From NCBI RefSeq assembly GCF_022012395.1, contig NZ_JAKLTQ010000008.1, positions 1 to 64,000 on the forward strand: a DNA stretch of 64,000 nt, written 5' to 3'. Below the pieces are notes generated by a model, which saw nothing but the letters and a program-made list of their open reading frames with translations, had not been told where the DNA came from and searched no databases. This DNA is from Arthrobacter hankyongi (GTDB taxonomy: Bacteria > Actinomycetota > Actinomycetes > Actinomycetales > Micrococcaceae). Position numbers and translations under genes: made by a program. Positions 2,391 through 62,025 of this stretch are shown here, piece by piece; position 1 is the first letter of the stretch; every line of letters begins with the position of its first letter.

Positions 2391-2720
2391 TAGCTGGCTC
2401 CTCCCGCGCGGCCGGCCCGGAAGCCGGGCGGCAAATACTCAGGCCCTCGCGGAGGGTGGTCGTCCGGATCCGGACTGGAAGGCTCCTGTCCGGCCGCTCC
2501 GGCGGCAGGCAGCGAGTGATGGGCACGTGTACGGGGTCTGCCGGTGCTGGGTGGGACTGCCTTGGTGCATGCCGCAGTGGGCGAGGCAGACGTCACGGAC
2601 CGGCGCCTAGAATAGCTGTCCATTGTCATTAAATGCTATCAGCCGGACCGTGCACTCCGCCCGGCCGCCGGCCGTTAACAGGGTGTCCAGCCTTCGTTTG
2701 ATCTGCAGGAAGTTCCGCGG
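2391..2720. other. Intergenic region upstream of the CNNM gene pair
   Basis: About 330 bases between the start of the CNNM gene (minus) and the end of guaB1 (minus). It must carry the promoter of the CNNM pair and any terminator of guaB1. I see no convincing -35/-10 pair, hairpin with a T-run, or small gene. The stretch around 2620-2645 is locally AT-rich and is the likeliest promoter site. Confidence 0.4.
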
Positions 2721-4249
<1,529 letters not shown>

Positions 4250-4337
4250 CAGATTGTGCCGCCGCGGCAGTCCCGCGCCGGCACCCGGTCACCAGCCCGG
4301 CCGAAAGTGCCGGCCGGCGTAGCAGTAGATCAGGTAA

Positions 4338-4368
4338 TTGGCCGTACTCCCCGAAGTGTTACTAGACT
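4338..4368 (+). promoter_or_regulatory. Possible kgd promoter
   Basis: TTGGCC at 4338-4343 and TAGACT at 4363-4368 are separated by 19 bases, about 135 bases upstream of the kgd start. Both boxes are weak and the spacing is long, so this is only the best candidate in the 328-base divergent region between guaB1 and kgd. Confidence 0.3.
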
Positions 4369-4503
4369 GGCTTGAGGTCCAAATCTTGCGCGCCGGCACG
4401 CGCCCGCAGTTGCCTCGGCTTGCGGCAAGGCCACGGGAGTACGCAGTTTCAAGGCGCGCAATTGGACGGGCAAGCGGCAACTGATGGAAGAGGCGTAAAC
4501 AAA

Positions 4504-44765: not shown

Positions 44766-45881
44766 TTACTCGGCGGCGTTGCGGTTGTTGGCCCGCCAGC
44801 GGATGCCTGCGTCGATGAAATCGTCGATCTCGCCGTCGAGCACGGCGGAGGTGTTGCCCACCTCGTGCTCGGTGCGCAGGTCCTTGACCATCTGGTACGG
44901 GTTGAGCACGTAGGAGCGCATCTGGTCCCCCCAAGACGCCTTCACGTCCCCGGCCAGCGCCTTCTTCTCCGCGTCCTCCTGCTCCTTCTTCAGCAGCAGC
45001 AGCCGGGACTGCAACACGCGCAGCGCCGCGGCACGGTTCTGGATCTGGGACTTCTCGTTCTGCATCGACACCACGATGCCGGTGGGGATGTGGGTCAGGC
45101 GCACCGCCGAGTCCGTGGTGTTCACCGACTGGCCGCCGGGGCCGGAGGACCGGAAGACGTCCACCCGGATCTCGTTCTCCGGGATCTCGATCGAGTCCGT
45201 CTGCTCGATCAGCGGAATGACCTCGACGGCGGCGAACGACGTCTGGCGGCGGCCCTGGTTGTCGAACGGGCTGATCCGCACCAGCCGGTGCGTGCCGGCC
45301 TCGACCGAGAGCGTGCCGTAGGCGTAGGGGGCCTTGACCTCGAAGGTGGCGGATTTCAGGCCCGCCTCTTCGGCGTAGGAGGTGTCCAGCACCTGGGTCG
45401 GGTAACCGTGGCGCTCGGCCCAGCGCAGGTACATGCGCATCAGCATTTCGGCAAAGTCCGCCGCATCGACGCCGCCGGCGCCGGAGCGGATGGTGACCAC
45501 GGCCTCGCGTTCGTCATAATCGCCCGAGAGCAGGGTCACGACCTCCAGCTCCGCCAACGCCTTCTTCAGCGAGGCCAACTCCTGGGCCGCTTCGGCCATC
45601 GAGTCGGCGTCGTCCTCGCCCTGGCCCAGCTCCACGAGCACCTCGAGGTCGTCAATGCGCGAGGAGAGGGTTTCGAGCCGCTCCAGCTCGGACTGGCGGT
45701 GCGAGAGCTTCGAGGTCACCTTCTGCGCCGCCGCCGGGTCATCCCACAGATCCGGCACGCCGGCCTGCTCGCTCAGGACGGCGATGTCCTTGCGGATGGT
45801 CTCCACGTCGGAGACTGCCTCGATGGAGTCATAGGTGGCACGCAGCGCGCGGATTTCAGCAGGAAAATCGATTTCAGCCAT
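44766..45881 (-). CDS. prfB: Peptide chain release factor 2
   Basis: 371 residues, complete in a single frame. The GGQ loop [20 protein letters not shown] and the stop-codon recognition tripeptide SPF ([12 protein letters not shown]) are present. It recognises UGA and UAA. The programmed frameshift of many bacteria is absent, as in other actinobacteria. The usual downstream neighbour ftsE is displaced by 11 kb. A ~150-base relic of this gene lies at 47565-47714. Confidence 0.96.
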
Positions 45882-48571: not shown

Positions 48572-49063
48572 CTATCGGAACCTTCCCACGATCTGCGTGG
48601 CCGTGGAGCTGACCTGTACCGCCGACAAGTCCAGGCCCGCGAGGAACGGCAAGGGCACCTCGAGGGACACATCCACCGTCACGGCCGATCCCGGTTCGAG
48701 GCAGGGATCGGCGCTGCAGCGGGCGTCGACGCGCAGCCGCCCGCCGTCGAACCCGAAATCCTGGGCCGACACCAGCACCGCCTGTTCGGCCCGGGCCCGT
48801 CCCTCGGCGGGACTGTGGGCGGCGGCGAAGACTTTCGCCGCGTGGTCGGCAGCGCTGACGACGGCGAAGGAGCCGGCCTGCACCTGCCCGATGCCGACAA
48901 TGAAGTAGACCACCGGTACCAGCAGCAGCGTGCCCAGGAACAGGAACTCGACCACGGCACTGCCGCATTCGGAGCGGCTGCCCTCGTCCGGCAACAGGGC
49001 ACCGGCCAGCCGCTCCCGCAGCCCGGACAGCACACCGCCGGCGTCACCGCGGCAGCGGCGCAT
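48572..49063 (-). CDS. TadE-like pilus protein
   Basis: 163 residues. After a ~30-residue leader the prepilin-like motif CGSAVVEFLFLGTLLLVPVV appears (Glu five of the helix), then an extracytoplasmic domain with a Cys pair (RCSADPC). Such minor pseudopilins belong to Tad (Flp) pilus systems. It overlaps the preceding TadE-like gene by 20 bases. Confidence 0.8.
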   Translation of the reverse strand: MRRCRGDAGGVLSGLRERLAGALLPDEGSRSECGSAVVEFLFLGTLLLVPVVYFIVGIGQVQAGSFAVVSAADHAAKVFAAAHSPAEGRARAEQAVLVSAQDFGFDGGRLRVDARCSADPCLEPGSAVTVDVSLEVPLPFLAGLDLSAVQVSSTATQIVGRFR

Positions 49064-49439
49064 GGCCTTCGACCCTCACCATGCCGGCAGGACCGAGCAG
49101 GCCAAACGTCGGCAGGGGTGCGGCAACCGACACCTGCAGCATGCGCGCGCCGCCGCTGCCCACCGTCCCGACGGCTACCTCCCGGGCGTAGGCCGGACCG
49201 AGCGACGAGGTAATCAGGGAAACAGTCCTGGCTTTGGCATCCTCCAGGTTCCGGTCCGCCAGGGTCCCGTAGCGGGCCCCCGAGCCGGCGGCGTCGATGA
49301 GGGTGTTGCGCACGTGCAACACCAGCGCCAACTGCACGATGGACATGCACATCAGCACCGCGACGGCGCCGATCAGTACAAAGTCGACCGCCGCCGAACC
49401 CGCTTCGCCGCCACCCCGCGCGGTCCCGGAGCCGTGCAT
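49044..49439 (-). CDS. TadE family protein
   Basis: 131 residues with the motif AGSAAVDFVLIGAVAVLMCM as N-terminal helix (Asp where Glu is usual), then LHVRNTLIDAAGSGARYG, the common TadE continuation. It starts one base after the stop of the split small Tad gene. Part of the Tad pilus locus. Confidence 0.8.
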   Translation of the reverse strand: MHGSGTARGGGEAGSAAVDFVLIGAVAVLMCMSIVQLALVLHVRNTLIDAAGSGARYGTLADRNLEDAKARTVSLITSSLGPAYAREVAVGTVGSGGARMLQVSVAAPLPTFGLLGPAGMVRVEGHAPLPR

Positions 49440-49548: not shown

Positions 49549-51075
49549 TACTGGAAGTAGTTACGTTTAACTGCCAACGCCCGTAAGACATGCTGAAGTG
49601 AAGCGGTCTACCACTTACCAAGGCTGGACACGACGCGACTTAGCTCGGCGCCGCAACTACGGTGATTTCAAAGCACAGTCATCAGGGTGGCCAGAGCCCA
49701 TCCGCCCATAGTAATTATGAGATGAAACTCTTCCAGTCTAAGGAGTTTGTCATTTCATCGGCACCATATCGGTTTATGGTCAACCAATGCTTAGAACTGC
49801 TATCTTCAGCCGCCCAGCCGAGTGCGCGTTCAACGTCATGACGAGATGGCTGATCACCATACGTGACTACAAGAACCTTCGGCTTCACCACGCGCTCCGA
49901 GAATTCAGCCCTTAACATCTCATTTACACATTCATCTCGGAATGAATAACCCACCACAAGCCAGTGCTGGGCGTCCTTGAGACCGCGCCCGAACATCTCA
50001 TAGGCAAGAGAAAACGGAAATTCCGTTACATGCGCCGCTTTGTCTCGCTGGTTGGCAAGCACAACGACAGGCCGGACGTTCGTCTCCTGATCTCTGACAG
50101 CCTGCCACTGGTCGTACGTCTGGAGAAAGGCTGTATCCAACTTGGCGAAAACAGTTCGTTCCCTGTCCGACCAATAGGTCAAGGAGCCGTGGAGGTGCAG
50201 CAACCGAATGCGGCTATCCGGGAAGTCTTCCGGACGCCGCCTGAGGGCAGGGACTGACAGTTCGTCGCCCTCAGTGCTCTTGATCGTTACTCTTTTCCAG
50301 CCATGTCCCAAGTCAGCAGGTTATGCTGATTGGTTGCAATCAGAGCCGCTAGCAGAAGGGTGTCGTAATTAAGGTTGCCGAACGCGATCTTTCCATCGAA
50401 GGCTTCGACGATAGCTTCTACAAAATCATGCATCGATTCAGATTCGTCCCGGTATGCACGGGATCTCTCAAAAATCACTTCCAGGACATGACTAATGCCG
50501 TTATCCCTAACCTGCTCGGCGAAGTCACTGACTTGCGCGATAGCTTCAAGAAGCTTGGCGTCTTGAGGCGAGACCAGAGCGGCGAGTTGCTGGAGATACG
50601 TCAGGGTTCTGCTTTCAGCCCCGAACGCGCCGACGAGTACCTCAAAATCGTCGTCGGTAGTAGCACCATGAGGGAGAGCCCGCTCAGCTATCTCCTTCAT
50701 CGCGGCGACAACATCAGAACCATCGTCTGTAGCGTTGCTGATCCGTTCAACTAACTCCTGGGTGATGGAGCGGAGGTTAAGCTTCGAGTTGAAAGCGACG
50801 CTGAGTCCGTTGCCCACCAAGATTGCTGCATTACGCTTCTCGTCTTCGACGTCCGTCATTGACCTTGCCCCATAGCTTGAATTGACCTATTTCAAGGGGA
50901 ACTGTACCTTTACGCTGGCCACATGCAGTGCTTGATGACACGGTCTGTTAATGCTCCGTCACCTGGGACAGAGCAAGGACTCCCCTCCGGCTTCGACCGA
51001 AGTCGAATTTCTCGAAGCACGTATAGGATCCTCCGACCCTTTCAAGAGCCGCCGCGGTGAGTTCAGGGCCGAGTT
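49549..51075. mobile_element. 1.5-kb insertion carrying a SIR2-like gene, flanked by ACTAG
   Basis: The block lies between two copies of ACTAG (49544-49548 and 51076-51080). Removing it and one copy restores the small Tad gene exactly. It contains one gene, no transposase, and I find no terminal inverted repeats. Base composition is clearly lower in GC than the host genes. The mobilising mechanism is unknown. Confidence 0.75.
49715..50859 (-). pseudogene. SIR2-like (DUF4917-type) domain protein, frameshifted
   Basis: Two frames form one protein of ~380 residues. The first (50287-50859) has the nucleotide-binding start AILVGNGLSVAFNSKLNL and FGNLNYDTLLLAAL. The second (49715-50311) has RLLHLHGSLTYWSDR, PVVVLANQRDK and LVVGYSFRDECVNEML. 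They overlap at 50287-50311 and the junction needs about one inserted base near 50300-50315. These motifs are those of SIR2-like proteins, several of which are NAD-consuming anti-phage effectors. It may be a true pseudogene, a sequencing error, or a frameshifting gene. Confidence 0.6.
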
Positions 51076-51215
51076 ACTAGGGTAATCATCACCCAGCCCG
51101 GCACGTCCCCTCGTTCGCGGTCCTCCCCGGCCATCGTCGTCCGCAGACGTGCCAGTCCGGCGGTGAATACCACCGACAGTATGGCCGCGGCTCTCAGGCC
51201 CAGTGTGCGTCTCAT
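51076..51215 (-). pseudogene. Small Tad-locus protein, N-terminal part (gene split by insertion)
   Basis: Starts ATG at 51215 with GAGGGGAAACG upstream, reads MRRTLGLRAAAILSVVFTAG and then ERGDVPGWVMITL, the conserved core of these small Tad proteins, before being cut at CTAGT. The C-terminal part is at 49441-49548. Confidence 0.8.
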
Positions 51216-51279: not shown

Positions 51280-51363
51280 TCACCACCCCAGGTTCAGCAG
51301 GGCCAGGCCCGGGTACACCGCGAACAGCACGGTCAGCGGCAGCACCCCAAAGACCAGCGGGAC
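51280..51363 (-). pseudogene. tadC-like gene, 3' fragment
   Basis: Reads VPLVFGVLPLTVLFAVYPGL and ends ALLNLGW then TGA. This is the C-terminal membrane helix of actinobacterial TadC (type II secretion F family). The N-terminal part is at 61419-62025; about 40 central residues are missing from both. Confidence 0.8.
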
Positions 51364-51596
51364 GCCGCTAGTGCAAGGTTGTGATTGCTAAACCAAATAG
51401 AAAAGCTCCGGCAGGACTGCAATCCTCCGGGGCGTGGCAATCAAGCGGTCAGGTTTGATTGCAGTTCCAGCGTACCGGCTGGGGCTGCCATTCTCCACCG
51501 TCTGCGGATTGCCGCAGTCGGTTCTTTTTTACGCTCTTACGCCTAAACCAATGAGCGGGCGGTTATCTCCACCGAATGCCGGCAACCGCGCCAGCA

Positions 51597-51638
51597 AGGC
51601 TCCCAGCACGCGACTGCGGCCCAGGTCCACACGCTAGA
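51597..51638. repeat. 42-bp direct repeat, left copy, flanking the IS1634-type element
   Basis: Identical to 53285-53326. It starts AGGCTCCCAGCACGCGACTG and ends ACGCTAGA. IS1634-family elements are known for unusually long target duplications, which explains the length. Confidence 0.9.
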
Positions 51639-53284
51639 CCCGACTTGGCTCATTTAGTGCCTATTGTGTTGGCGGGCGGCCGTGACGATGGCGCCGATCT
51701 CCGGGGGTGCCGGGTCTTCGGCGGTGACGGTCTGCCCGCCGACCTGGATCTGGATCTGGATGGTGCGGTAGCGGCGCAGGGTCTTCACGAGCCGGCGGAT
51801 GGACCAGCCGGTGGCTGATTCCAGCCAGCGGCTGACGGCCAGGGCGGCGAACACGATGGTCAGGTGCGCGTCGATCGACTCGCGGGTGTGGTGGTAGATG
51901 GGCCGGGCCGCGAGGTCGCTCTTGGACATGCGGAACGATTTCCCGGCCTGGTAGAGCCGGTGGTAGGCGGCGATGACCTGCCCGACGGGCCAGTCGACCA
52001 GGTTCGTCACGTACCCCTTGATCCCCGCCAGCGCCCGCGCCTTGGCCTCCAGGTCGCGGTTCACGGCCCGGTCGCCGCCGGTCAGCTTCACGAACCGGTT
52101 CCGCTTCACGGACGTCTTCCCGGCGACGGCCGCCTCGGCCTTGGCGATCTGCTGGTCGATGCCGTGCAGGGTGCGGCGGGCGTTGTCGGCGGAGTACCGG
52201 TAGTAGAACACGTGGTCCCGGCGCTTGTCGGTGGGGCCGGCCGGCCACGGCTGGGCGAACACGTGCCCGTCCGGGAAGTCCCGGCCCGGGTGCTCCTTGC
52301 GCCACCGGTCGATCACGTACGGGACTGCCGGGATCTTCGCGCCCAGGATGAACGAGAGCCCTTCGGCTTCGAGCAGCTTCTTGTTGGCGTCGGAGACCAT
52401 GCCCGCGTCGGCGACCACGACCACGTCGGTGAGCCGGTGTGCGGCCATGGGCCATGAAGGAGCGGATCACCGGCAGCATGGTGGCCGATCCCGGCCCTGT
52501 TCCCCTCGAACGCCTGGATCATGAGCGGGAACCCGTCCGCGTCGGCGAGCAGGCCGACGGTGATCTGCGGCTCCAGGCGCCGTTCCTTCGAGAACCCGGG
52601 TTCGCGGAACCCGTCACCCTCATGCGTCTCGAAATACAGGGTCGTCACGTCGTAGAGGACCACCGTGGCCGGCCCCAGCCCCACGTGGTCCGCGTTCGCG
52701 GCGGCGATCTTCTGTCGAAACTCCGGCTTCGCATAGGCCGGCAGGCGGCGCTTGACCGTCGGGTACGACGGCGCCTCGATCCCCGCTTCCTCCAGAACAC
52801 GCACCGCGTCCAGCTTGCTGGTCGGCCCGATGATCCGGGCCAGCACGAGCCGGCGGAAGACGTCCCCGTCCTCCTCACCGGCCACGGCCGCGAACCCGAG
52901 CCGGTGGTAGGCCAGTTCCAGCAGGTCCCACAGCACGCCCATCCGGGACGCGGTGATCGGCACGGCCGCAGCCGGGTCCTCCAGGCCCAGGTCCAGCTGC
53001 GGCTGCCGCGCGGCAAGCTTCTGCTCCGCCGCGGCCAGCAGCAGCTCGTACTCGGCGTCCGTGTGCGCGGATCCGACATGCTCCAGATCCCGCTGCCCGC
53101 GCCGCTTCGAGTACACGATCTGCACCGCCCGCGCCCCCGACGCGGTCTTCACGGTCCGTATGTGCGGCGCCATCACCCCAGAATACGGCCCCGCTTAGTG
53201 CACAAATCCCGCGCAGGCAGCCACCAAAACCCCACGTCAGAGACTCACAACCCGCGAGAAGCCACCTTCGTGAGCCAAGTCAGG
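51639..53284 (-). mobile_element. IS1634-family insertion sequence (1,646 bp)
   Basis: Terminal inverted repeats CCCGACTTGGCTCA (51639-51652) and TGAGCCAAGTCAGG (53271-53284, inverse) match at 13 of 14 positions. Identical 42-bp direct repeats lie directly outside. It carries one transposase gene, now frameshifted. Confidence 0.88.
51654..53176 (-). pseudogene. IS1634-family transposase, frameshifted
   Basis: The N-terminal frame (from 53176) has TVKTASGARAVQIVYSKRRG, GPTSKLDAVRVLEEAGIEAP and TTLYFETHEGDGFREPGFSK; the C-terminal frame (to 51654) has VVVVADAGMVSDANKKLLEA and KGYVTNLVDWPVGQVIAAYH. The frame changes twice: one extra base near 52490, just after QAFEGNRA, and a seven-base tandem duplication CATGGCCCATGGCC near 52445-52460. 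Together these do not restore the frame, so the protein is not made intact. Confidence 0.85.
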
Positions 53285-53326
53285 AGGCTCCCAGCACGCG
53301 ACTGCGGCCCAGGTCCACACGCTAGA
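53285..53326. repeat. 42-bp direct repeat, right copy, flanking the IS1634-type element
   Basis: Identical to 51597-51638, immediately outside the right terminal repeat of the IS. Confidence 0.9.
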
Positions 53327-53348
53327 CACATCCCGCTCCGGGGTGGGT

Positions 53349-53404
53349 CTGGTTGTCGTGGGCAAATGCAGCAGAGCGGAGACGGGGGCAGCGGGTTTCT
53401 TTGG
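53349..53404. repeat. Inverted repeat of the island, left arm
   Basis: About 56 bases starting CTGGTTGTCGTGGGCAAATG. The reverse complement matches 61163-61219 at roughly 90%. It lies just beyond the 3' end of a membrane coiled-coil gene (53460-54131); weaker similarity extends on both sides. Confidence 0.8.
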
Positions 53405-53459
53405 GGATGGGGTCAAGCAAACAATCAGATCCCGCAGAGATCCCATGACAAGCAAAGGA

Positions 53460-54131
53460 TCAAACTGCTTGCTCCAGCCCCACGCGGGCTTTCCCGAGCT
53501 TCTCATCACGGGACAGTTGCTCCCATTCATCCAGCGATTTGGTTTCGAGATATGCGTTCGTGTATTTTACGCCTGCCAGCATCTCCGAGCGCTCATCTGT
53601 CGAACCACGAACCCAGATAACAAGAACGGCACCCATCCAACCGAAGAGTCGTTGAACGTTCTCGGGCGTTGCTGCCTCGTACTCGTCCATAAGACACTTT
53701 TCAACTTCTTCAAAAGCTCTGATGCCCAGCTCTCGAATGGCGAAGTACATGTCCTTCTCATCCGCCGGCACCTCAAGGTGAAAGCTTTCTAGCCCAACTG
53801 CAAACTGGGACTTCAATCTGGGGAGTTCGTCGAATGGTTTTTGAGTCGTACTCAGTTCAAACAGGTCTTGACTTTCGACCAAGGTATTGAGCAAACGCGC
53901 CACAACATCGTGCATCCGTGCCCGCGAATTCTCTTCGCGTTGAACCCTCAACTGTTCCTGGTGGTGTGTGTCCTGCTTGTCAAGCTGTTGTGTAAGCCCT
54001 ACACGCTGTTCACGCAGAGTGAGCCGCAGGACTACAACCGCCACAGCCGCACCGACTCCAGCCCCCAACAGCCCATCAAACAGCGTTTGCAACACGTCGG
54101 CTGAGAGCAGCCATCCCCAAAAAATATTCAC
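53460..54131 (-). CDS. Coiled-coil membrane protein, function unknown
   Basis: 223 residues from a GTG at 54131; a TTG at 54137 is also in frame. One N-terminal membrane segment (~16-35, GLLGAGVGAAVAVVVLRL) is followed by a Gln/Glu/Arg-rich coiled coil (~36-75) and a helical cytoplasmic region (LNTLVESQDLFELST, YFAIRELGIRAFEEVEKCLM). No known domain. The layout resembles the protein at 60457-61065 in the opposite arm of the island. GC content is lower than the core. Confidence 0.55.
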   Translation of the reverse strand: MNIFWGWLLSADVLQTLFDGLLGAGVGAAVAVVVLRLTLREQRVGLTQQLDKQDTHHQEQLRVQREENSRARMHDVVARLLNTLVESQDLFELSTTQKPFDELPRLKSQFAVGLESFHLEVPADEKDMYFAIRELGIRAFEEVEKCLMDEYEAATPENVQRLFGWMGAVLVIWVRGSTDERSEMLAGVKYTNAYLETKSLDEWEQLSRDEKLGKARVGLEQAV

Positions 54132-54153
54132 GAACAAATACTATTTGCTGCGG

Positions 54154-54231
54154 TCAGTTGTCTCGTTCATCAAGTTCGTTGTAGGGATCCTGACAGGACG
54201 ATTCTTCCCGACTGATCCGCTTGACCCACTT
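54154..54231 (-). pseudogene. Truncated third copy of the 100-residue orphan family
   Basis: The minus strand reads KWVKRISREESSCQDPYNEL and ends in a stop, matching the C-terminus of the proteins at 55111-55413 (WVKRISREESSWQDPYDE) and 59531-59833. The N-terminal three quarters are missing; the adjoining DNA belongs to the opposite-strand gene at 54352. Confidence 0.75.
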
Positions 54232-54351
54232 ACACGGCCGAGGGCTACGGCGGAGAAACATCGTCCGAGGCTGGTGCCATCTGCCCGATGTGTGCCGACA
54301 TCTACGCCAGAATGAAGTATCAGACGTACGAACCATGAGGGGGAAACGAAA

Positions 54352-54690
54352 ATGACGGCAACACCTACCTGTCAGCCTTGGTGCGACAATCACCAGGACG
54401 GCGACGGCGAACCGTACTGCAATACCATCCGCCGCCTTTACACCTCGCCGTACCGGCGAGCCGACGCTTCTCCCGAACCGTCTGGGTTTATCGACCCCGA
54501 CCCTGCGCCCGACGCCGTAATCCTGGAGGCTATCCACGATCTGGAGGCGGACGCCACGGAGGTGGCTATCGAAAACTGGGACTTTAGGACTGACGAACTG
54601 CAGTCGAAACTGTGGACAGACCTTGACGGCATTAAAGCGATGCACGCAGCCCTTGGTCAGTTCATCAAACAGGCCGAATCCAGCAAATAG
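54352..54690 (+). CDS. Small Cys/Trp-motif protein (DUF6907-like)
   Basis: 112 residues. The N-terminal motif CQPWCDNHQDGDGEPYC suggests a small metal-binding unit of the kind found in many actinobacterial and phage hypotheticals. A helical C-terminus follows (IKAMHAALGQFIKQAES). GAGGGGGAAACG precedes the ATG. Function unknown. Confidence 0.6.
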   Translation: MTATPTCQPWCDNHQDGDGEPYCNTIRRLYTSPYRRADASPEPSGFIDPDPAPDAVILEAIHDLEADATEVAIENWDFRTDELQSKLWTDLDGIKAMHAALGQFIKQAESSK

Positions 54691-54774
54691 CCACAGCAGA
54701 AACAAGGATCCCCCGCCAACCGCATTGGCTGACGGGGGATCCTGCTATTCAGAGCACAAACGCGACGGCATCCG

Positions 54775-55056
54775 CTATCGTGCCCCGCGCCCCTTGAAAA
54801 ATTGATCGTCGAGTTCCCTGACCTGTTCCAGGCTCAAGGCGTTCTGCGGTCGCTCTCCGGGGCCATCCCAGCTAATGATCGGGGGCCACGCGATCCTATC
54901 AGCGTGCATCAGTATCGAGCCGAGATGATCCGGGCAAACATGCAACGGCATGTCAACCGCCGTCCGTTCTACACCGAACATCGTGGGTTGACCGCAGAGG
55001 GTTTCCCCTTCCGGGCCTTCGAGGTAAGCGTCACAGCAATACGTTGAGTCGTCCAT
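54775..55056 (-). CDS. Small Cys-rich hypothetical protein
   Basis: 93 residues from the ATG at 55056. It has CCDAY, a TLCGQP and HVCPDH, so four Cys and nearby His could bind a metal. The C-terminal half is Pro/Trp-rich (WPPIISWDGPGE). No ribosome site is clear. It resembles small phage or plasmid proteins; function unknown. Confidence 0.5.
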   Translation of the reverse strand: MDDSTYCCDAYLEGPEGETLCGQPTMFGVERTAVDMPLHVCPDHLGSILMHADRIAWPPIISWDGPGERPQNALSLEQVRELDDQFFKGRGAR

Positions 55057-55110
55057 GATGACCAGACTAGGCGATGCTTTAACGCTCAAAACATCGGAGG
55101 TCGGGTGGGT

Positions 55111-55413
55111 TCAGTCGGTTTCGTCGTAGGGATCCTGCCAAGATGATTCCTCCCGGCTGATCCGCTTCACCCAGACTGCTGGCACCCAGCGCGTTTCAAT
55201 GCTCAGATCAACATCCTGCCACTTCACCTGCACATAATGCGGTGTCCAACCGATGGCCTTGCCGTTGACCGTCTCCATCTCCATACGCACCCGCGCGTAG
55301 GGTTCACGGTTGTATGTGGGCCGGGTTACCGGTTCCTGCTCGAAGTCCGGGTGCCAACGAGGGTACTTCGACGCGAAGATGCCCCCGGCCCGCGAAATAT
55401 CAACCTTGTTCAC
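55111..55413 (-). CDS. Orphan ~100-residue family protein, copy 1
   Basis: 100 residues from a GTG at 55413. The sequence MNKVDISRAGGIFASKYPRW, RVRMEMETVNGKAIGWTPHY, VQVKWQDVDL and WVKRISREES is about 80% identical to the protein at 59531-59833. There is no membrane segment or Cys; it is rich in Trp and Arg and likely beta-rich. No family is recognised. A third C-terminal fragment lies at 54154-54231. Confidence 0.65.
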   Translation of the reverse strand: MNKVDISRAGGIFASKYPRWHPDFEQEPVTRPTYNREPYARVRMEMETVNGKAIGWTPHYVQVKWQDVDLSIETRWVPAVWVKRISREESSWQDPYDETD

Positions 55414-55596
55414 AGCCCCATTGTGGCACCTTGCCCGCTATCTCTATTGACTTGAGATACGGTCACCAGTGGAGAGCCAAACATCCATCCACGGAAAGCA
55501 ATTAACTGCTCCGCTTGCTCGGCTTCATTGTGACGCTGCCCAATCGCCTGATGCGGCAGCATTGAACGAGCGCAGCGGTACTTGATAGGAGATTTT

Positions 55597-56043
55597 ATGA
55601 CGATACGGCCGCGCGGGTGGTATCAGGATCCATGGGATCCAAGCCTACGCAGGTTGTGGGATGGACAGGGCTGGACGCACCACACCCAAGCCCCCGCCTT
55701 ACAAGACCTCCTGCACACGATAGGGCCGCTGAACCACGCGCCGGCACCGGTTCAACCTTCCCACCCGGCAGAAACCCAATCAGCCAAAGCGAGCAACAAT
55801 CAAGTCATCGTTGGCTTTACTTTGGCGATCGTCTCCTTGTTTTTTGCCGCTGTACCGGTCAACGGAACCTTGTTGACCCTCGCGGCCACAATTTTTTCCA
55901 CCGTGGGCCTGATACGACAAACCCCTGAAATGGGAAAGAAGTATCTAGTCCTCGGGATCATCGGCGTCGCTATAGGGCTCATCTACACCTTCGGCTCAGT
56001 TATAATCCTGATGCGTTTCTTCAACGGCGAACTCTACATCTGA
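55597..56043 (+). CDS. DUF2510 domain membrane protein
   Basis: 148 residues from the ATG at 55597, with AGGAGA upstream. The N-terminal DUF2510 signature is GWYQDPWDPSLRRLWDGQGW, a motif found at the N-terminus of many actinobacterial membrane proteins. A Pro/Ala linker and two to three membrane helices follow (~70-90, 92-108, 118-145). Function unknown. Confidence 0.75.
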   Translation: MTIRPRGWYQDPWDPSLRRLWDGQGWTHHTQAPALQDLLHTIGPLNHAPAPVQPSHPAETQSAKASNNQVIVGFTLAIVSLFFAAVPVNGTLLTLAATIFSTVGLIRQTPEMGKKYLVLGIIGVAIGLIYTFGSVIILMRFFNGELYI

Positions 56044-56123
56044 AAAGTCCGCCGCAGCCGCACTCTCGTGCCGGTATGCTCTATAAGATCGAACCAAGCG
56101 TTTTCCACACATAGAAGGCCAGA

Positions 56124-57017
56124 ATGACCTCCACGGCACAGAAGCCAAAAAAGCGGCGCATGAAATTTTCACCTTCTGTCAATTTCATTGGCATCATCAT
56201 GCTTATTCTTGCTGCATTATCCTTGTCCATTGTGGTCATTCTGACTATCAAGCAGCAGAACTTGACGCCTTTAGAAAACTTGATGTTCACCATCATTATC
56301 TTCATATTCTCCACGGTCGGTTCTGTGATAATTAGCGCCTACTTCAACCAAGACCAAGCCCGCAAGGAGTATGAACAGCTAGCTCGACCTTCTCTCCGCA
56401 GGGTTACATCCTTGCAGTCTGCGACGCTAATGATTGAGCAACGAGTTGCTGAAAGAGCCGACGATGTTAAGTCAACTGCCGACGGCCCAACCTCCGAATT
56501 GACCTGGCTGGAGGGATTGAGAAGTAATCTGCAGATGCTCCTTCATCAAATTGGTGACGCAAACTCCGATTGGCGCGAGCTGCTCCCGAAAGAGTATGAA
56601 GACGCCCTTCGCGAGCGATCTGCAGAAGTTGCTGAGAAAGAGGCGCAGATTAGAGAATACGTACAGCAGATTGAGTCTCTGCAAGGGAAGATAGAAGAGC
56701 AAGGGAAACGAGCCAAGGAAGGGGATGGCAAAGCTGCGGAGACGATCAAGGATCTGGAGCAACAGCTTTCGAAGCTCCAGAGAAATTCCCCCATTACAGG
56801 GAATCGATCTTATAACTACATGACCAGTTCTAGCAATCTATTCAATGTCAAGCCTACAAGTATCATTACTGATGACACCGGATTCATTATTGGAGGAAAA
56901 TATGATTTCAATGGGAGTCCTTCAGGCATAATTGGCTCAGGCCCGAGGCCCGGGGAAACCTCGAAGCCCAAAAATAACGTAGAAGGCAATGATGAAAATT
57001 CTCACAGGAAATCGTGA
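56124..57017 (+). CDS. Membrane protein with coiled coil, function unknown
   Basis: 297 residues. Two membrane helices near ~20-42 (NFIGIIMLILAALSLSIVVI) and ~52-72, then a long cytoplasmic coiled coil (~150-225; YEDALRERSAEVAEKEAQIR, EQGKRAKEGDGKAAETIKDL). The C-terminus is Ser/Asn/Gly-rich with ITDDTGFIIGGKYDFNGSPS. The DNA is notably AT-rich, a sign of transfer. Such membrane coiled-coil proteins can be phage-defence or exclusion factors, but nothing here proves it. Confidence 0.6.
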   Translation: MTSTAQKPKKRRMKFSPSVNFIGIIMLILAALSLSIVVILTIKQQNLTPLENLMFTIIIFIFSTVGSVIISAYFNQDQARKEYEQLARPSLRRVTSLQSATLMIEQRVAERADDVKSTADGPTSELTWLEGLRSNLQMLLHQIGDANSDWRELLPKEYEDALRERSAEVAEKEAQIREYVQQIESLQGKIEEQGKRAKEGDGKAAETIKDLEQQLSKLQRNSPITGNRSYNYMTSSSNLFNVKPTSIITDDTGFIIGGKYDFNGSPSGIIGSGPRPGETSKPKNNVEGNDENSHRKS

Positions 57018-57058
57018 CTTAAAATTGGTTTCTGATACCTGAATTTTTGTCTGAAAAA

Positions 57059-57529
57059 CTACCATCTCCGGCTCTGCGGCATAGGTACTTGGTGCAAGGG
57101 CAGGTGCGAGTAGTCCACCCCGGCAACGGGCCTCTGACGCGCCCAGTAGCCGCCTCTAGCTTCCAACCCGTCTATCTGCTCCTGAGTCCACACCAGCGGC
57201 TTCCTATCGGCACGGGGCGGCGGCGCGGGATCCATCATTGCCCGCCTGCCCCTGGTGCCGTCACCCTTACTGCTGTTGCAGCTCCGATGCATGCCCTGCA
57301 ACCCGTTCACCCCAGGTGCCATGCGCCCGCCATTGTTCACAGGGTCAATATGATCCGCGGTGAAACTCCGGGCATCCTTCCAGAACTCCGGATACATCGT
57401 CCGGTCCTCAAACTCCCACAGGAACGGCATGCCGCACGCCGCGCACGGCAGGTTATCCCGCTTATACCGACGCTTGAGGGTTTCCCGCTGCTTCACGTAG
57501 AAGTGATCATTCCGCCACGTCTTAGCCAA
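57059..57529 (-). CDS. Phage-type HNH endonuclease
   Basis: 156 residues from the TTG at 57529, which has AGGGGGAAGC directly upstream; a GTG at 57550 is in frame. A zinc Cys pair CAACG is followed by the HNH core FTADHIDPVNNGGRMAPGVN and GMHRSCNSSKGDG. Next to a terminase small-subunit gene this is the packaging-associated HNH nuclease of tailed phages. Confidence 0.85.
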   Translation of the reverse strand: MAKTWRNDHFYVKQRETLKRRYKRDNLPCAACGMPFLWEFEDRTMYPEFWKDARSFTADHIDPVNNGGRMAPGVNGLQGMHRSCNSSKGDGTRGRRAMMDPAPPPRADRKPLVWTQEQIDGLEARGGYWARQRPVAGVDYSHLPLHQVPMPQSRRW

Positions 57530-57580
57530 GCTTCCCCCTGACCGCAGCACGGGTTTCCAACATCCAGTCCAGAGGGGTAA

Positions 57581-57730
57581 TCACAGCCCGGATCCCCTCA
57601 CCCTGGCCCTATACCACGCCCACCGGTCCACCCGCCACGCCATCGGATCCGAACCCAACAGCTCCGAATCCAGCCGCAAATCGGCCGGCATCGGATACTC
57701 AGGCACTGGCTGACGCTTCCGCCTCACCAC
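57581..57730 (-). CDS. Small phage-type protein between terS and HNH
   Basis: 49 residues starting VVRRKRQPVPEYPMPADLRL, from GTG codons at 57730 or 57727. It overlaps the terS remnant and precedes the HNH gene with a tiny gap. The basic start and WRVDRWAWYRARVR are typical of small proteins in phage packaging clusters. Function unknown. Confidence 0.45.
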   Translation of the reverse strand: MVRRKRQPVPEYPMPADLRLDSELLGSDPMAWRVDRWAWYRARVRGSGL

Positions 57731-58062
57731 GCTTGCCCCCGTAGACACCCCGGACACCACGGGCCGCCGGCAAATCGTCCTCCACGCCGGGAATCTGCAA
57801 CGTTGCTAGCAACCGGGCCAGAGTCAACCGCTGCTGCCGTGCCTCAGCCACCCCCCGGATGCACCCGCGAACCCTGCGAGCTGGGCAGCATCAGCCCATC
57901 CTTCTTTACCGCAGCATCAAGCTCTGTGATCCGGTCCCGGATCCGGCACGCTTCCTCCAGGATCGCCAACTCGTGGTCGGCCCACTCATACTCATCCGTT
58001 GCGGCATCCCACAACCGCTTACCCGCAGCCCCCAAGCCACGGGGTTTATCAGTAACGCTCAC
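57699..58062 (-). pseudogene. Phage terminase small subunit, frameshifted
   Basis: The first frame (58062-57844, GTG start with GGAGAAAGA) reads KRLWDAATDEYEWADHELAI and LMLPSSQGSRVHPG. The second frame then gives VAEARQQRLTLARLLATLQI and DDLPAARGVRGVYGGKRG, ending at 57699. The shift is at a run of six G (minus strand) near 57855. The joined sequence matches phage P27-type small terminases. It could be a real mutation or a homopolymer sequencing error. Confidence 0.8.
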
Positions 58063-58377
58063 TCTTTCTCCAATGTCAGACTGGCCCCCTCAGGAGCCGA
58101 TTTAAGGGCCGGAAACAGCCCGATTAAGCCCGGTCCAATCCCGCCTCCAGACCCCGCCAAACCGGGCGTTTCAGGCTCCCCGCCCCGGCGGCCATCGCGG
58201 GACGTGCCGGACATGCCGTCGAGCCATCACCCGGCGGAACCGCCACGAGGCCACACCCGTCATCTAGGGACCTGCCGGCGCTGCATCCGGTGCAACACAG
58301 CTCGCATGTGCGAGTCCTTCAGCGAGGCTCGACGAAGCGGCGTAGAACAACCCCACTAGTCCATCGAACAGCGAAGC
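58063..58377. other. Non-coding stretch upstream of terS
   Basis: About 315 bases with no convincing gene. It precedes the phage terminase gene and ends at a strong terminator oriented rightwards; it could hold a phage packaging site or a small RNA, but I see no specific structure. Confidence 0.35.
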
Positions 58378-58415
58378 GCCCGCCCCAAGGAGGCCACCTT
58401 GGGGCGGGCTTTTTT
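58378..58415 (+). terminator. Strong rho-independent terminator
   Basis: A perfect 13-bp stem GCCCGCCCCAAGG / CCTTGGGGCGGGC with a six-base loop followed by TTTTTT. There is no obvious plus-strand gene directly upstream, so its transcript is unknown. Confidence 0.88.
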
Positions 58416-58544
58416 GTTGCCCCGCCGTGCCTGCCGCTCGGCATGACGGCCGTGGCCACCGGTCGCGCATAGAGGTTCCGGAAGTCGGGGCCGGGCCAAC
58501 CCGGGACACACCTCTGCTTCCAGCTTTCTACGAAACGGAGCACC

Positions 58545-58847
58545 ATGTCCTTCCACTTGCGGCCGCTGAACATCGACAGCCTGGACTTCGACGACCTGGG
58601 CGTCGACGGCAAAGACCTGCGGCTCGACGGCGACCTGTTCTACGCCGTCTACATTCTCAAGCCCGACGAGGCCCGGGTCGGTGTCTTCAAGCCCACCGGC
58701 CGAGACCTCCGCGACAGCGACCTGCTGGGTAATGCTGCTGTGGACCCGCGGGAATATCGCCGCACCAATAAGGAGGCCGCTCTGGCCATCGGAGTCATCG
58801 GGGCCAAAGCGGACTTCGACCAGAACTATCTGTCCAGAATCCGCTGA
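58545..58847 (+). CDS. Hypothetical acidic protein
   Basis: 100 residues. ACGGAGCACC precedes the ATG. It is Asp/Leu-rich (IDSLDFDDLGVDGKDLRLDG) with a mixed C-terminal half (GRDLRDSDLLGNAAVDPREY). No membrane segment or known motif. A 15-bp hairpin terminator follows directly. Function unknown. Confidence 0.5.
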   Translation: MSFHLRPLNIDSLDFDDLGVDGKDLRLDGDLFYAVYILKPDEARVGVFKPTGRDLRDSDLLGNAAVDPREYRRTNKEAALAIGVIGAKADFDQNYLSRIR

Positions 58848-58852
58848 CTCCC

Positions 58853-58897
58853 GTACGGAACCTGTCCACGGTCCTGAGCCTGGGACAGGTTCCGTAC
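58853..58897 (+). terminator. Hairpin terminator
   Basis: A perfect 15-bp stem (GTACGGAACCTGTCC and its complement) with a 15-base loop, starting five bases after the preceding stop codon. No T-run. Confidence 0.65.
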
Positions 58898-58962
58898 CTG
58901 TTCCGCAACCTGCTACTTTTCGTAGGGCAGGCGTCCGGACCAAAAAGACAGCGAGTAGCTAG

Positions 58963-59526
58963 ATGTCCAATCGAGACCGTACCGTCCCCACTGAGCTTGA
59001 CCGGCTCAAGCTGTTCCTGGACCTGGCCGAGCACTACATCGCCGTCTGCGAGCAGTTGCCCCTCGGCGAAGCGGGGAAAGTCAAAATCTCTCTTAGGGAC
59101 GAACCGCTGAGCGTCGCCTTCGAGATGCGGCTCATGCTCTTGCGCAAGTTCATTGACGGTAGCAACGTGGATCTTGAGAAGGTAGCCAAGGCGTTCGGCA
59201 GTTGCTATTCCGGTCCCGCGAACATGCTCAAGGAGAATCTGGAGTCCTACGCCGACGATATCGAAAGGACGCTCCAAGGGGAAATAGGCTTCTCCATTGT
59301 GGGGATGCCGCCCACGGTGCATATGGACTACTTTTACAATGCCCTCTATGGCCGCCTCATGCACGCCGACTGGAACCGCTGGAACCTGCTCCAGAAGCGG
59401 GCAGGCTTCGAGGTCAGGATGTCGCTCATGGAGACCTACCGCCGGCTCGACCACTTCGTGAGGGAAGCACACCACTCCGTAAAGTCGGCCTTCGACATGG
59501 GCGAACTACAGGGCTCACCGGAGTAA
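58963..59526 (+). CDS. Hypothetical helical protein
   Basis: 187 residues, soluble and mostly helical by appearance (LDRLKLFLDLAEHYIAVCEQ, RLMLLRKFIDGSNVDLEKVA, MLKENLESYADDIERTLQGE). No family recognised. It ends four bases before the orphan-family gene at 59531, so the two are probably cotranslated. Confidence 0.6.
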   Translation: MSNRDRTVPTELDRLKLFLDLAEHYIAVCEQLPLGEAGKVKISLRDEPLSVAFEMRLMLLRKFIDGSNVDLEKVAKAFGSCYSGPANMLKENLESYADDIERTLQGEIGFSIVGMPPTVHMDYFYNALYGRLMHADWNRWNLLQKRAGFEVRMSLMETYRRLDHFVREAHHSVKSAFDMGELQGSPE

Positions 59527-59530
59527 GCGT

Positions 59531-59833
59531 GTGAACAAGGTTGACGCTTCACGGGCCGCGGGCATCTTCGCGTCGAAGTACCCGCGCTGGCATCCGGACT
59601 TCGACGTCGAGCCGGTGACCCGGCCCAGCTACAACCGCGAACCCTACGTACGAGTCCGGATGGAGATGGAGGCGGTCAACGGCAAAGCCATCGCCTGGAC
59701 CCGGAACTATGTGCAGGTGAAGTGGCAAGACCATGACCTGAGCGTCGAAATACGCTGGGTGCCGGCGTCTTGGGTGAAGCGGATCAGTCGGGATGAATCT
59801 ATCTGGCGGGATCCCTACGACATCGTTGACTAA
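59531..59833 (+). CDS. Orphan ~100-residue family protein, copy 2
   Basis: 100 residues from GTG with GGAGTAAGC upstream. It reads MNKVDASRAAGIFASKYPRW, RVRMEMEAVNGKAIAWTRNY, VQVKWQDHDL and WVKRISRDESIWRDPYD, a close paralogue of 55111-55413 in the opposite orientation. Conserved Trp, Arg and acidic residues are spread along its length. Function unknown; linkage to the helical protein at 58963 may be informative. Confidence 0.65.
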   Translation: MNKVDASRAAGIFASKYPRWHPDFDVEPVTRPSYNREPYVRVRMEMEAVNGKAIAWTRNYVQVKWQDHDLSVEIRWVPASWVKRISRDESIWRDPYDIVD

Positions 59834-60040
59834 ACCCACAGGCAGACTCGCAGAAAAGACCACCCGCCCGTCGTCGTAACCGATGACCGGGGTTCTGCGC
59901 GCCTGCTCACGATCGCGACGACCGCCCTCGGCTTCGTGTCAATTCCGTCCGGGTGACAAGCGCAATGATTCAATGAGGCCACCCTTGCCAGTGCCCCACC
60001 TGCAAGCCAAAAGCCGCGTCCAAGCGAAAGAAGAGAACGA

Positions 60041-60241
60041 ATGATCGATCCGCGCGACAAGATGAAGTCAATATTCGGATCAATCGCGAGAGCAATTGAT
60101 GAGTCACTTCAGGAGAGCCAGCGCCGAGATGCTGCCCTCAAGGCCCTTAAAATAGACACCACGCATGACGAATGCCATCAAGCAATAGGAAAACTAGCCG
60201 TCGCGATTGTGGAGCTGCAAAACAAATCAGAAACCAAGTGA
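60041..60241 (+). CDS. Small helical hypothetical protein
   Basis: 66 residues, with GAAGAGAACGA before the ATG. It looks entirely helical (MKSIFGSIARAIDESLQESQ, ECHQAIGKLAVAIVELQNKS). No motif. Function unknown. Confidence 0.5.
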   Translation: MIDPRDKMKSIFGSIARAIDESLQESQRRDAALKALKIDTTHDECHQAIGKLAVAIVELQNKSETK

Positions 60242-60380
60242 GGAAGTGAACCCCTGCCGGTCATTACGACTAGCAGCCCGGCCCCGATCCGAATAGTTCC
60301 CTTGCGACTTGGCCCTGTTAACCGACGACTCCTAGGCGTATTAGACTCCCGCCACAGTCTGACGGCCGCCTCTACACCCC

Positions 60381-60419
60381 AAAAGCCCCGTCCCGGTTCA
60401 CGCCGGAGCGGGGCTTTTT
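60381..60419 (+). terminator. Rho-independent terminator
   Basis: AAAAGCCCCGTCCCGG pairs with CCGGAGCGGGGCTTTTT around a six-base loop, with A-run left and T-run right. It separates the small gene at 60041 from that at 60457. Confidence 0.8.
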
Positions 60420-60456
60420 GCGTCTCCGGCGCCCGTCGCTGACATAGGCTGACTCA

Positions 60457-61065
60457 GTGGATATTCAATCGTGGGATTGGGGCTCGGTGCCCGATTGGCT
60501 CGCCGCCATCGGCACCCTCGCCGCCGTCGTGTTTGCCTTGGCCGTTGCCACGAGGGACGCTAAGCGCCTCGAGGTCGAGCAGTACCAGGCGGCCCGTGAC
60601 CGGGAGGTGTTCCGTCAGGAGCAGCAGGAGCAGGCCGCCCAACGAAAGCGGCGCCTCGCTGCGCAGGTCACTTTGATAACTGAGGAAACTGCACTGATGG
60701 CCATCGGAATGGCCGACGTCCTCAAGCCCAATTTCGAGACCTTCGTTCAGCGCAATTACACAGTCCACAACGGCGGCGAGGAGCCTATATTCATGGCTAC
60801 CGTGGTAGACAACTTCCCTATGGATGGCAACCTCGCCGGCGACTACGAAGCCAGGACCATCGAGACCTGGAACGTGATTGAGCCGGATGGGCGGCGAACG
60901 ACGGCAGCTACCATCGATCCAGCCGCGCCTAGCCGCCGAGAAGTTCAGTTTAACGACGGTGCTGGCCATAGGTGGCAAAGACAAGAGCTAGGCGAACTGC
61001 GGGAGGTGTCGCCAGACGTCCCCGGCCAGGTTGGTTCTGGTGATACTTCCCCCGTGACCGCATAA
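60457..61065 (+). CDS. Coiled-coil membrane protein, function unknown
   Basis: 202 residues from a GTG. One N-terminal membrane segment (~12-32, WLAAIGTLAAVVFALAVA) is followed by a Gln/Glu/Arg-rich coiled coil (~33-72; REVFRQEQQEQAAQRKRRLA) and a beta-like domain (NYTVHNGGEEPIFMATVVDN). The layout parallels 53460-54131. Its 3' end lies ~100 bases before the right arm of the 57-bp inverted repeat. Confidence 0.6.
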   Translation: MDIQSWDWGSVPDWLAAIGTLAAVVFALAVATRDAKRLEVEQYQAARDREVFRQEQQEQAAQRKRRLAAQVTLITEETALMAIGMADVLKPNFETFVQRNYTVHNGGEEPIFMATVVDNFPMDGNLAGDYEARTIETWNVIEPDGRRTTAATIDPAAPSRREVQFNDGAGHRWQRQELGELREVSPDVPGQVGSGDTSPVTA

Positions 61066-61162
61066 CTCCTGTTCGCCGCACTCGAAGCCAGGAGTAGGGA
61101 GGGCGAGCTAAGGATGAAGCGGACTCCCTGCGAGAGATGTTTCCCGATCTGTCCCCTTCCTC

Positions 61163-61219
61163 CAAAGAAACCCGCTGCCCCCCACCTCCGCTCTGCTGCA
61201 TTAGCCCACGACGACCAGC
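61163..61219. repeat. Inverted repeat of the island, right arm
   Basis: Starts CCAAAGAAACCCGCTGCCCC and matches the complement of 53349-53404 with about five differences in 57 bases. It lies downstream of the coiled-coil membrane gene at 60457. Confidence 0.8.
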
Positions 61220-61418
61220 CCCCATCGGCCGTCCCGCACGGCTCCGGTCGCGACGTGGCCCTGTTCGCCGATAGTTCTTGGGCAATACTGGATCCCCTCG
61301 CCGCCACGTACTTGCGCTGCCGTCGTACAGCCCGCAGCCGCTTAGTCAATCCCAGCTCACCACGATGACTCCTAACGGTCGAGGTTGGCCCGACGTAAGT
61401 CTGTGACCATTGAACCGG

Positions 61419-62025
61419 TTCCATGGCCACGGAGATCCCGTCCACGAACCGCACGAGGGCCGGAAGCTGGGTCCGGTTGGAGAGTTCACGCAATGCCGCC
61501 AGCAGCGGGGTTCCGGACCGGGTGGCGGCCAGCACTTGGGCGAATTCCCCGGCAAGCTCGCCCTGGGTACTGCGGCAAATACGTTCCAAGGCCCCGGTGG
61601 CGTTTTCCCCGGCACCAACGGCCAGGGCCATGAGTTCGGCCAATCCGGGAAATTCGGTCAGCATCTTCGCTTCCCGGCGGCGGATCCGAACGCCGAGCAA
61701 GTAGTCCCGGAGCAGGAATCCCCCAACGGCGAGCGCCAGGGTAACGGCCACGGATACCAGCGGGTCTCCGAAACCCGCGGTTACGGACAGGACGGCCCAG
61801 GCAATCCCCGCCCGGAGGCCGGCCACCGACCAGAGCAACTGCCCGGCACGGAACTCCACCGGCGATTGGCTGAGTCCGGCCTGCGCCAGCCGCCGGGACA
61901 ATATGGTGGGAGCCGGATTGAACCGGCCCAGCCAGTGCACCACATCCAGCAGGATCGGCCGAACGATCCGTCCAAGCGGGCCGAACGGGGTAACATCTCC
62001 GGCCGCGGGATGCAGCAGGCGGGAC
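61419..62025 (-). pseudogene. tadC-like gene (type II secretion system F family), 5' fragment
   Basis: Reads LLDVVHWLGRFNPAPTILSR through LLRDYLLGVRIRRREAKMLT, then FPGLAELMALAVGAGENATG and LPALVRFVDGISVAME, where similarity stops at the island edge. A membrane pair lies at ~55-80. The 5' end is cut at 62026 by an IS21-family element. The conserved C-terminus is at 51280-51363. TadC anchors the Tad pilus assembly platform; this copy cannot work. Confidence 0.85.

Follow-up and report, generated by a model that had tools for sequence, protein, structure and literature searches.

The stretch of DNA analysed here, termed the window, comprises positions 1 to 64,000 of the forward strand of contig NZ_JAKLTQ010000008.1 of Arthrobacter hankyongi, 64,000 nucleotides (nt) in all. 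It carries two inverted arms of a 57-bp repeat, which is the conserved edge of an unlisted, structured element of approximately 160 nt, reported here as element E. The mirror arrangement around the two arms is best read as a pile-up of decayed satellite ends, ordinary in kind, and it reveals an unlisted covarying element of very regular position. We consider it likely that satellite ends have piled up and decayed in the Tad pilus operon of the window and that E is a structured element, probably a 5′ leader that controls an accessory gene.

The two arms are identical at 55 of 60 positions, with 5 mismatches and one 1-base gap, which is far beyond chance and bears out the inverted repeat described in the initial annotation. 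Two further copies are found in the same genome on contig C22, where they are in direct orientation and both are broken (BLAST E-values 7.8e-19 and 1.3e-9 with the left arm and 2.2e-16 with the right arm). Alignment of copies shows that conservation extends past the 57 bp, and 18 further copies of E are present in 15 other genomes. As had been anticipated, copies of the repeat are also found in other actinobacteria, at the edges of mobile islands and next to a variety of accessory genes. Named carriers are Nesterenkonia sp. GX14115, Micrococcus lylae NBRC 15355 and Micrococcus sp. EYE_212.

A BLAST search of 395 genomes of the family gave matches in 20 at an E-value of 0.01, few of them strong. 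R1, a sequence-only model built from 10 copies, matched 13 of these genomes including A. hankyongi at an E-value of 3e-10 or better, and 33 at 0.01 or better, the rest being mostly weak; the same-genus genome G004 (R1 E-value 3.3e-6) was retained because the whole element aligns. A second model, R2, includes a structure derived from a MAFFT alignment of 14 copies (alignment A5), and it found two new copies in other families (genomes G474 and G481). Among 396 genomes of the order, R2 at an E-value of 0.001 matched four: A. hankyongi, G474, G481 and G676. The G676 match (27.6 bits over 55 nt) is not counted; the broken copies of A. hankyongi have scores just as low (27.1 and 28.6 bits), but there BLAST supports the match. 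Among 396 genomes of the phylum the single R2 match is A. hankyongi itself, and in three genera, at an E-value of 1e-4, R2 matched 5 of 11, 3 of 9 and 1 of 30 genomes.

E is a base-paired element. RNAalifold proposed for 14 copies a branched structure with compensatory changes. In the plain MAFFT alignment A5, from which the tested structure was itself derived, 22 of 33 pairs are changed on both sides and 81.2% of cells are paired versus 64.7% in shuffled alignments; none of 500 shuffles reaches any of the five measures. An alignment of 18 copies from 15 genomes was fitted to the model and consists of A5 plus G474, G481, a second G140 copy and a G112 copy, the last two having been seen by R1 and left out of A5. 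Here 25 of 33 pairs show changes on both sides and 83.5% of cells are paired, again with 0 of 500 shuffles; this alignment leans to the model and the copies are related, so that the counts are not independent events. Slid controls gave 38–48% paired cells versus 81–84% for the true structure. Four of the five pairs of long-range helix 1 are formed in all 18 copies, with up to three pair types. An extra hairpin within helix 5, suspected by eye, was not significant (Fisher p 0.36). A coding sequence was rejected as an explanation of E, given the covarying helices and indels that do not fall in threes (read by eye on the alignments). The core of E also displays four G-runs, G-quadruplex-like, on the strand that reads from the attachment (att) site to the interior in 12 of 18 copies, and a contig end cuts one of the six copies that lack them.

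The position of E is best seen in four islands mapped at both ends, L067, L069, L033 and L030. L067 and L069 are integrated at tRNA-Ser with att repeats of 15 and 19 bp, L033 at tmRNA with a 17-bp att repeat, and L030 in tadC, where it was mapped against an uninterrupted tadC. E is situated ~240, ~375, ~220 and ~190 bp, respectively, inside the integrase-distal end. All four islands are 8.7–9.7 kb long, with the integrase at one end, E just inside the attR junction at the other, and one matched copy of E each. An att-repeat test on eight loci found only 12 bp in L071 and, in L030, L068, L070 and L097, nothing that reached 11 bases. The initial annotation had suggested that the repeat is an attachment or recombination site by which cargo cassettes are added, and its recurrence beside diverse accessory genes would suit such a site. 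However, the att junctions lie ~190–375 bp further out in all four islands, which contradicts this suggestion, and the helices covary across copies; we regard a cassette site as scarcely credible. A transposon with long terminal inverted repeats was rejected since each delimited island has one matched copy with the att junctions outside it. An integron-like cassette array was rejected on the same grounds, and neither of the two direct copies on C22 is intact. An RNA that guides att choice is disfavoured, as similar E sequences are found in islands of genus g21 at a tad site (L070, by eye), at tRNA-Ser (L067) and at tmRNA (L033).

The genes of the islands, confirmed across several islands but not all in any one, are those expected of satellites. 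Integrases are of the serine or tyrosine type (those of L030, L069 and L070 identified by Pfam, those of L067 and L033 by BLASTP to L069). Helicase-primase genes are found as D5_N in L067 and L070 and AAA_25 in L034 and L097. The small terminase subunit (TerS, phrog_1496) is present in L069 and L031, HNH in L069, capsid PF05065 in L030 and L070, and portal phrog_104 in L032; excisionase, MFS transporter, NYN, DUF3800 and an MmeI-type restriction enzyme are confirmed as well. GmrSD is found beyond E in L097, either inside or outside the island. No tail or lysis gene was recognised by eye in the lists of open reading frames (ORFs) of the four delimited islands, in which not every ORF was searched. 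In another genus, genome G120 carries an island of ~8.7 kb in tadC, with a large serine recombinase gene starting just inside attL, a Phage_capsid gene mid-island, and a DUF3800 gene and one repeat copy near the other end, followed by attR. With an integrase and mapped att ends, small size, and replication, packaging or capsid genes, the islands qualify as putative phage satellites. Pieced together from related islands, the layout would run integrase, excisionase, helicase/primase, HNH/TerS or portal/capsid, accessory slot, E, att. In the tmRNA-integrated satellite L033, the gene for a type IIG (MmeI-like) restriction enzyme (1539–4379) is situated near the E end.

The islands resemble phage-inducible chromosomal islands (PICIs), including the capsid-forming kind, in their size of ~9 kb, the integrase at one end, the excisionase and the helicase/primase, in the HNH and TerS or portal and capsid genes of some islands, and in accessory genes near the far end. 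They differ in having serine as well as tyrosine integrases, in the insertion into the tad operon and in the common element E.

E is not confined to satellites. A large prophage in genome G221, with a tRNA-Arg, has ParB, HNH, TerL, portal, protease, capsid, endolysin and tyrosine integrase genes and also carries E, 114 nt ahead of the integrase gene; no second copy of its supposed tRNA end was found on the left of the prophage. The sharing of E by satellites and one prophage, together with the HNH/TerS genes of some islands, could be taken to mean that E is a packaging (cos) site recognised by a helper phage. We think this very improbable. Four variants of E gave no match in 50,697 phage records, where only module 2, the segment whose outer part is hairpin H (Table 1), matched, in Arthrobacter phages; E does not adjoin the HNH/TerS genes in L069 or the G221 prophage; and a site acting as duplex would not require long-range helices that covary. 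One variant of E gave no blastn match in 72,556 plasmids, and five exact-pattern scans for E in IMG/VR were all empty.

On the att-to-interior strand an ORF start is found 66–162 nt past the edge of the E model in 13 of 18 copies. This corresponds to 13 of 16 examinable copies, as two (L098 and L107) are at contig ends; no such start was recognised beyond E in L030, L035 and L097. Eleven of the 13 starts are within 66–118 nt of E. The ORFs consist of 11 short and diverse ones (35–140 aa), one of 193 aa (L069) and one integrase, and the pairs L066/L070 and L032/L065 look like relatives. Given these starts, E is most likely a structured 5′ leader of the accessory slot. It would probably be transcribed as a leader RNA from the att side inward and control the island-specific gene ~90 nt downstream. 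The strand statistics point the same way: in each of two folding tests, 12 of 16 copies gave the lower z for the att-to-interior strand (second test, Wilcoxon p 0.04 on related sequences), and on this strand 43 C-A cells would become G-U, versus 30 G-U on the other.

Several observations weigh against a leader. The 13 ORF starts were recognised by eye, prior to any measurement, in a search confined to the one strand, and a mechanical scan for ORF starts favoured neither strand (9 of 18 on each). The other loci contain no relatives of most of these downstream ORFs, one ORF measures just 35 aa, and L066, L067, L069 and L070 lack an obvious Shine-Dalgarno sequence. In five copies (both window copies, C22, L030 and L097) the adjacent gene faces E instead. 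Between E and att, the opposite strand bears a terminator-like hairpin and a TAnnnT box. The modelled strand has no excess of G-U (30 G-U vs 43 C-A in 589 cells), so the paired form may be single-stranded DNA, and folding energies are barely under those of shuffles (mean z −0.37 and −0.91 for the two strands in the second test, −0.83 and −1.48 in the first). The order of the TerS and HNH genes in the window is also unlike that in L069.

Two other functions can be set against these data. E may be a replication or priming site of the satellites, forming single-stranded DNA hairpins or an RNA-primed origin. Its location near att, its non-coding nature, the covarying hairpins without G-U excess and the four G-runs of 12 of 18 copies would all fit, and some cluster A mycobacteriophages offer a precedent in an RNA-expressing prophage origin (PMC7157519). 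The regular distance of 66–118 nt between E and 11 of the 13 ORF starts, and helicase/primase genes that lie on the integrase side where identified (L067 and L070), count against such a site but are not decisive, and we consider it unlikely. The other possibility is that E is an independent small RNA, read outward from the island interior and terminating at hairpin H. H with its U-rich tail and the TAnnnT box are on the appropriate strand and are found in Arthrobacter phages too. However, both the strand statistics and the ORF starts speak, modestly, for the other strand, and the TAnnnT box is downstream of E and so would not make E; this is somewhat less likely again than a replication site. 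With moderate confidence, then, a structured leader of the accessory slot is the most likely function of E and a replication or priming site the second. A more tentative proposal is that E represents a new class of cis-acting leader RNA, a switch at the att end, common to satellites and a prophage, that would gate the docked accessory gene or integrase ~90 nt behind it.

Satellites are usually recognised by their protein genes, and E offers a mark at the nucleic-acid level by which those of actinobacteria can be found. Islands whose integrases and packaging genes are unrelated have it in common, as does a prophage, and it gives a testable handle on how satellites switch cargo on. If E is a leader switch, satellites with differing integrase, replication and packaging genes would retain one control module for the cargo slot. 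The Tad pilus operon is also indicated as a repeated integration target.

In the window, the Tad operon is on the minus strand and is interrupted (Table 1). ORF 51063–51215, which we take to be flp-like, and ORF 44766–45881, presumably prfB, both match the tad locus of G004. The attR sequence, TTGCACTAG...CCG|CTGGTCTT.GGGGT, is common to the window and the G120 island, and tadC resumes at 51357 on the minus strand. The initial annotation did not mention that an island interrupts tadC or that an IS1634-family insertion sequence (IS) splits the left copy of the repeat, separating it from its outer half (43-bp target duplication, 51597–53327). The window island is not intact: tadC is cut, ending at ~61417, short of the att site, the copies of E are broken, and neither the integrase-side end with attL nor an integrase was found. 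The right copy of E has a low R2 score and is accepted because BLAST also finds the repeat there.

The mirrored pair of 100-residue genes stands, in inverted orientation. Each arm is indeed flanked by an ORF, but the two ORFs are unrelated in sequence (best BLASTP E-value between them 3.4); one membrane helix and a coiled coil in each is a reading by eye. Searches of Pfam, NCBIfam and PADLOC gave no family for either ORF at the limits applied; the right one gives two marginal PHROG matches (E-values 0.041 and 0.085, the second a holin). The mirror is not borne out as a cassette system and is best read as two satellite right ends, each with 100-aa gene, cargo and repeat, in opposite orientation and both decayed. 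One broken copy of E would lie beside the true attR, split by IS1634, and the other, truncated, beside the 5′ half of tadC.

Table 1. Features of the window (dots in the strand column: no strand assigned).
Feature	Position	Strand	Remark
TadE	49044–49439	-	PF07811
attR junction, element end against 3′ part of tadC	51343..51376	-	same junction as G120 island
Terminator-like hairpin (H), U-rich tail; forms outer part of module 2	51400..51435	-	
Element E, left copy, outer piece displaced by IS	51549–51718		R2 38.1 bits, E-value 1.1e-6
43-bp direct repeat, copy 1, inside E, target duplication of IS	51597..51639	.	identical to 53285–53327
IS1634-family IS, transposase split into two ORFs	51640..53284	-	NF033559, E-values 1.5e-37, 3.4e-56
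Element E, left copy	53244..53399	- (strand modelled; transcribed strand unsettled)	R2 66.4 bits, E-value 6e-14
43-bp direct repeat, copy 2	53285..53327	.	identical to 51597–51639
Left arm of inverted repeat	53345..53404	+	conserved core of element E
Cargo ORF, 225 aa, pointing at E	53460..54137	-	no family matched
100-aa family gene, left copy	55111..55413	-	81% identity to right copy
DUF2510 protein	55582..56043	+	PF10708, 1.3e-9; relative on C22
HNH endonuclease, phage family	57059..57550	-	phrog_338, 1.6e-14; Pfam HNH 0.00042, just under cut-off
Small-terminase remnant	57844..58062	-	BLASTP to ORFs of L035, L031, L069, 64–67 bits
100-aa family gene, right copy	59531..59833	+	81% identity to left copy
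Cargo ORF, 202 aa, pointing at E	60457..61065	+	unrelated to 53460..54137 by BLASTP
Right arm of inverted repeat	61162..61222	-	alignment to left arm
Element E, right copy, truncated	61167..61300	+	R2 28.6 bits, E-value 3e-4
T2SSF-type tadC, 5′ part, broken ahead of att site	61417..61943	-	PF00482

The L069 and L031 ORFs that match the small-terminase remnant are the phrog_1496 terminase small subunits. An IS21 element is located in the tad genes to the right of the island. Copies of E or satellite islands adjoin tadA, tadB or tadC in L030, L032, L070, L073, the window (51.3–61.9 kb) and L007 (5.3–6.0 kb). By alignment, tadA adjoins E copies in G004 and on C22 and tadB in G140, and a tad-like cluster adjoins the E copy of G142 (ORFs read by eye). 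The Tad operon thus appears to have been targeted repeatedly by integration, at different att points, in three genera by alignment and in a fourth (G142) by ORF reading.

A covariance-model search showed no Rfam family at threshold over E; RF00523 overlaps a window copy at chance level (16.2 bits vs a threshold of 39, E-value 1.2). No such element is named in the parts covered by a literature survey of limited reach (including PMC7157519, PMC10690885, PMC10023795, PMC7567579 and PMC13097055). Three known systems invite comparison. The PLE satellites of Vibrio encode an inter-inverted-repeat non-coding RNA, supported by RNA-seq and of unknown role (PMC7567579); E is likewise a satellite-encoded non-coding region of unknown role but occurs in other hosts and is supported by covariation only. 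In some cluster A mycobacteriophages the prophage origin is a region that expresses a non-coding RNA (PMC7157519). Like E, this is a non-coding region near lysogeny functions in phages of actinobacteria; however, it is needed for extrachromosomal replication, whereas the islands here are integrated, and the BLAST of E matched no phage record. GOLLD and ROOL are large ornate phage non-coding RNAs, often near tRNAs (PMC7567579), and differ in that E has no threshold match to them or to any Rfam family.

A separate noncoding region was observed in cluster FF phages. It is conserved, ~550 bp long and situated between the integrase start and module 2, and some records annotate a hypothetical ORF there. 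The region (L101 5450–6060, equivalent to ~29.2–29.8 kb of Arthrobacter phage Ryan) has equivalents in Nandita, Zaheer, Elesar and Gusanita and is at least 80% covered in 14 of 17 matching records. It showed no Rfam match and no R2 match (the best in two phage loci, E-value 0.049, lies elsewhere). A 401-nt part of the Ryan region gave a fold z of −4.48 in the direction of the integrase and of −1.96 on the opposite strand, and in an alignment of five phages 19 of 170 predicted pairs on one strand and 20 of 216 on the other are changed on both sides.

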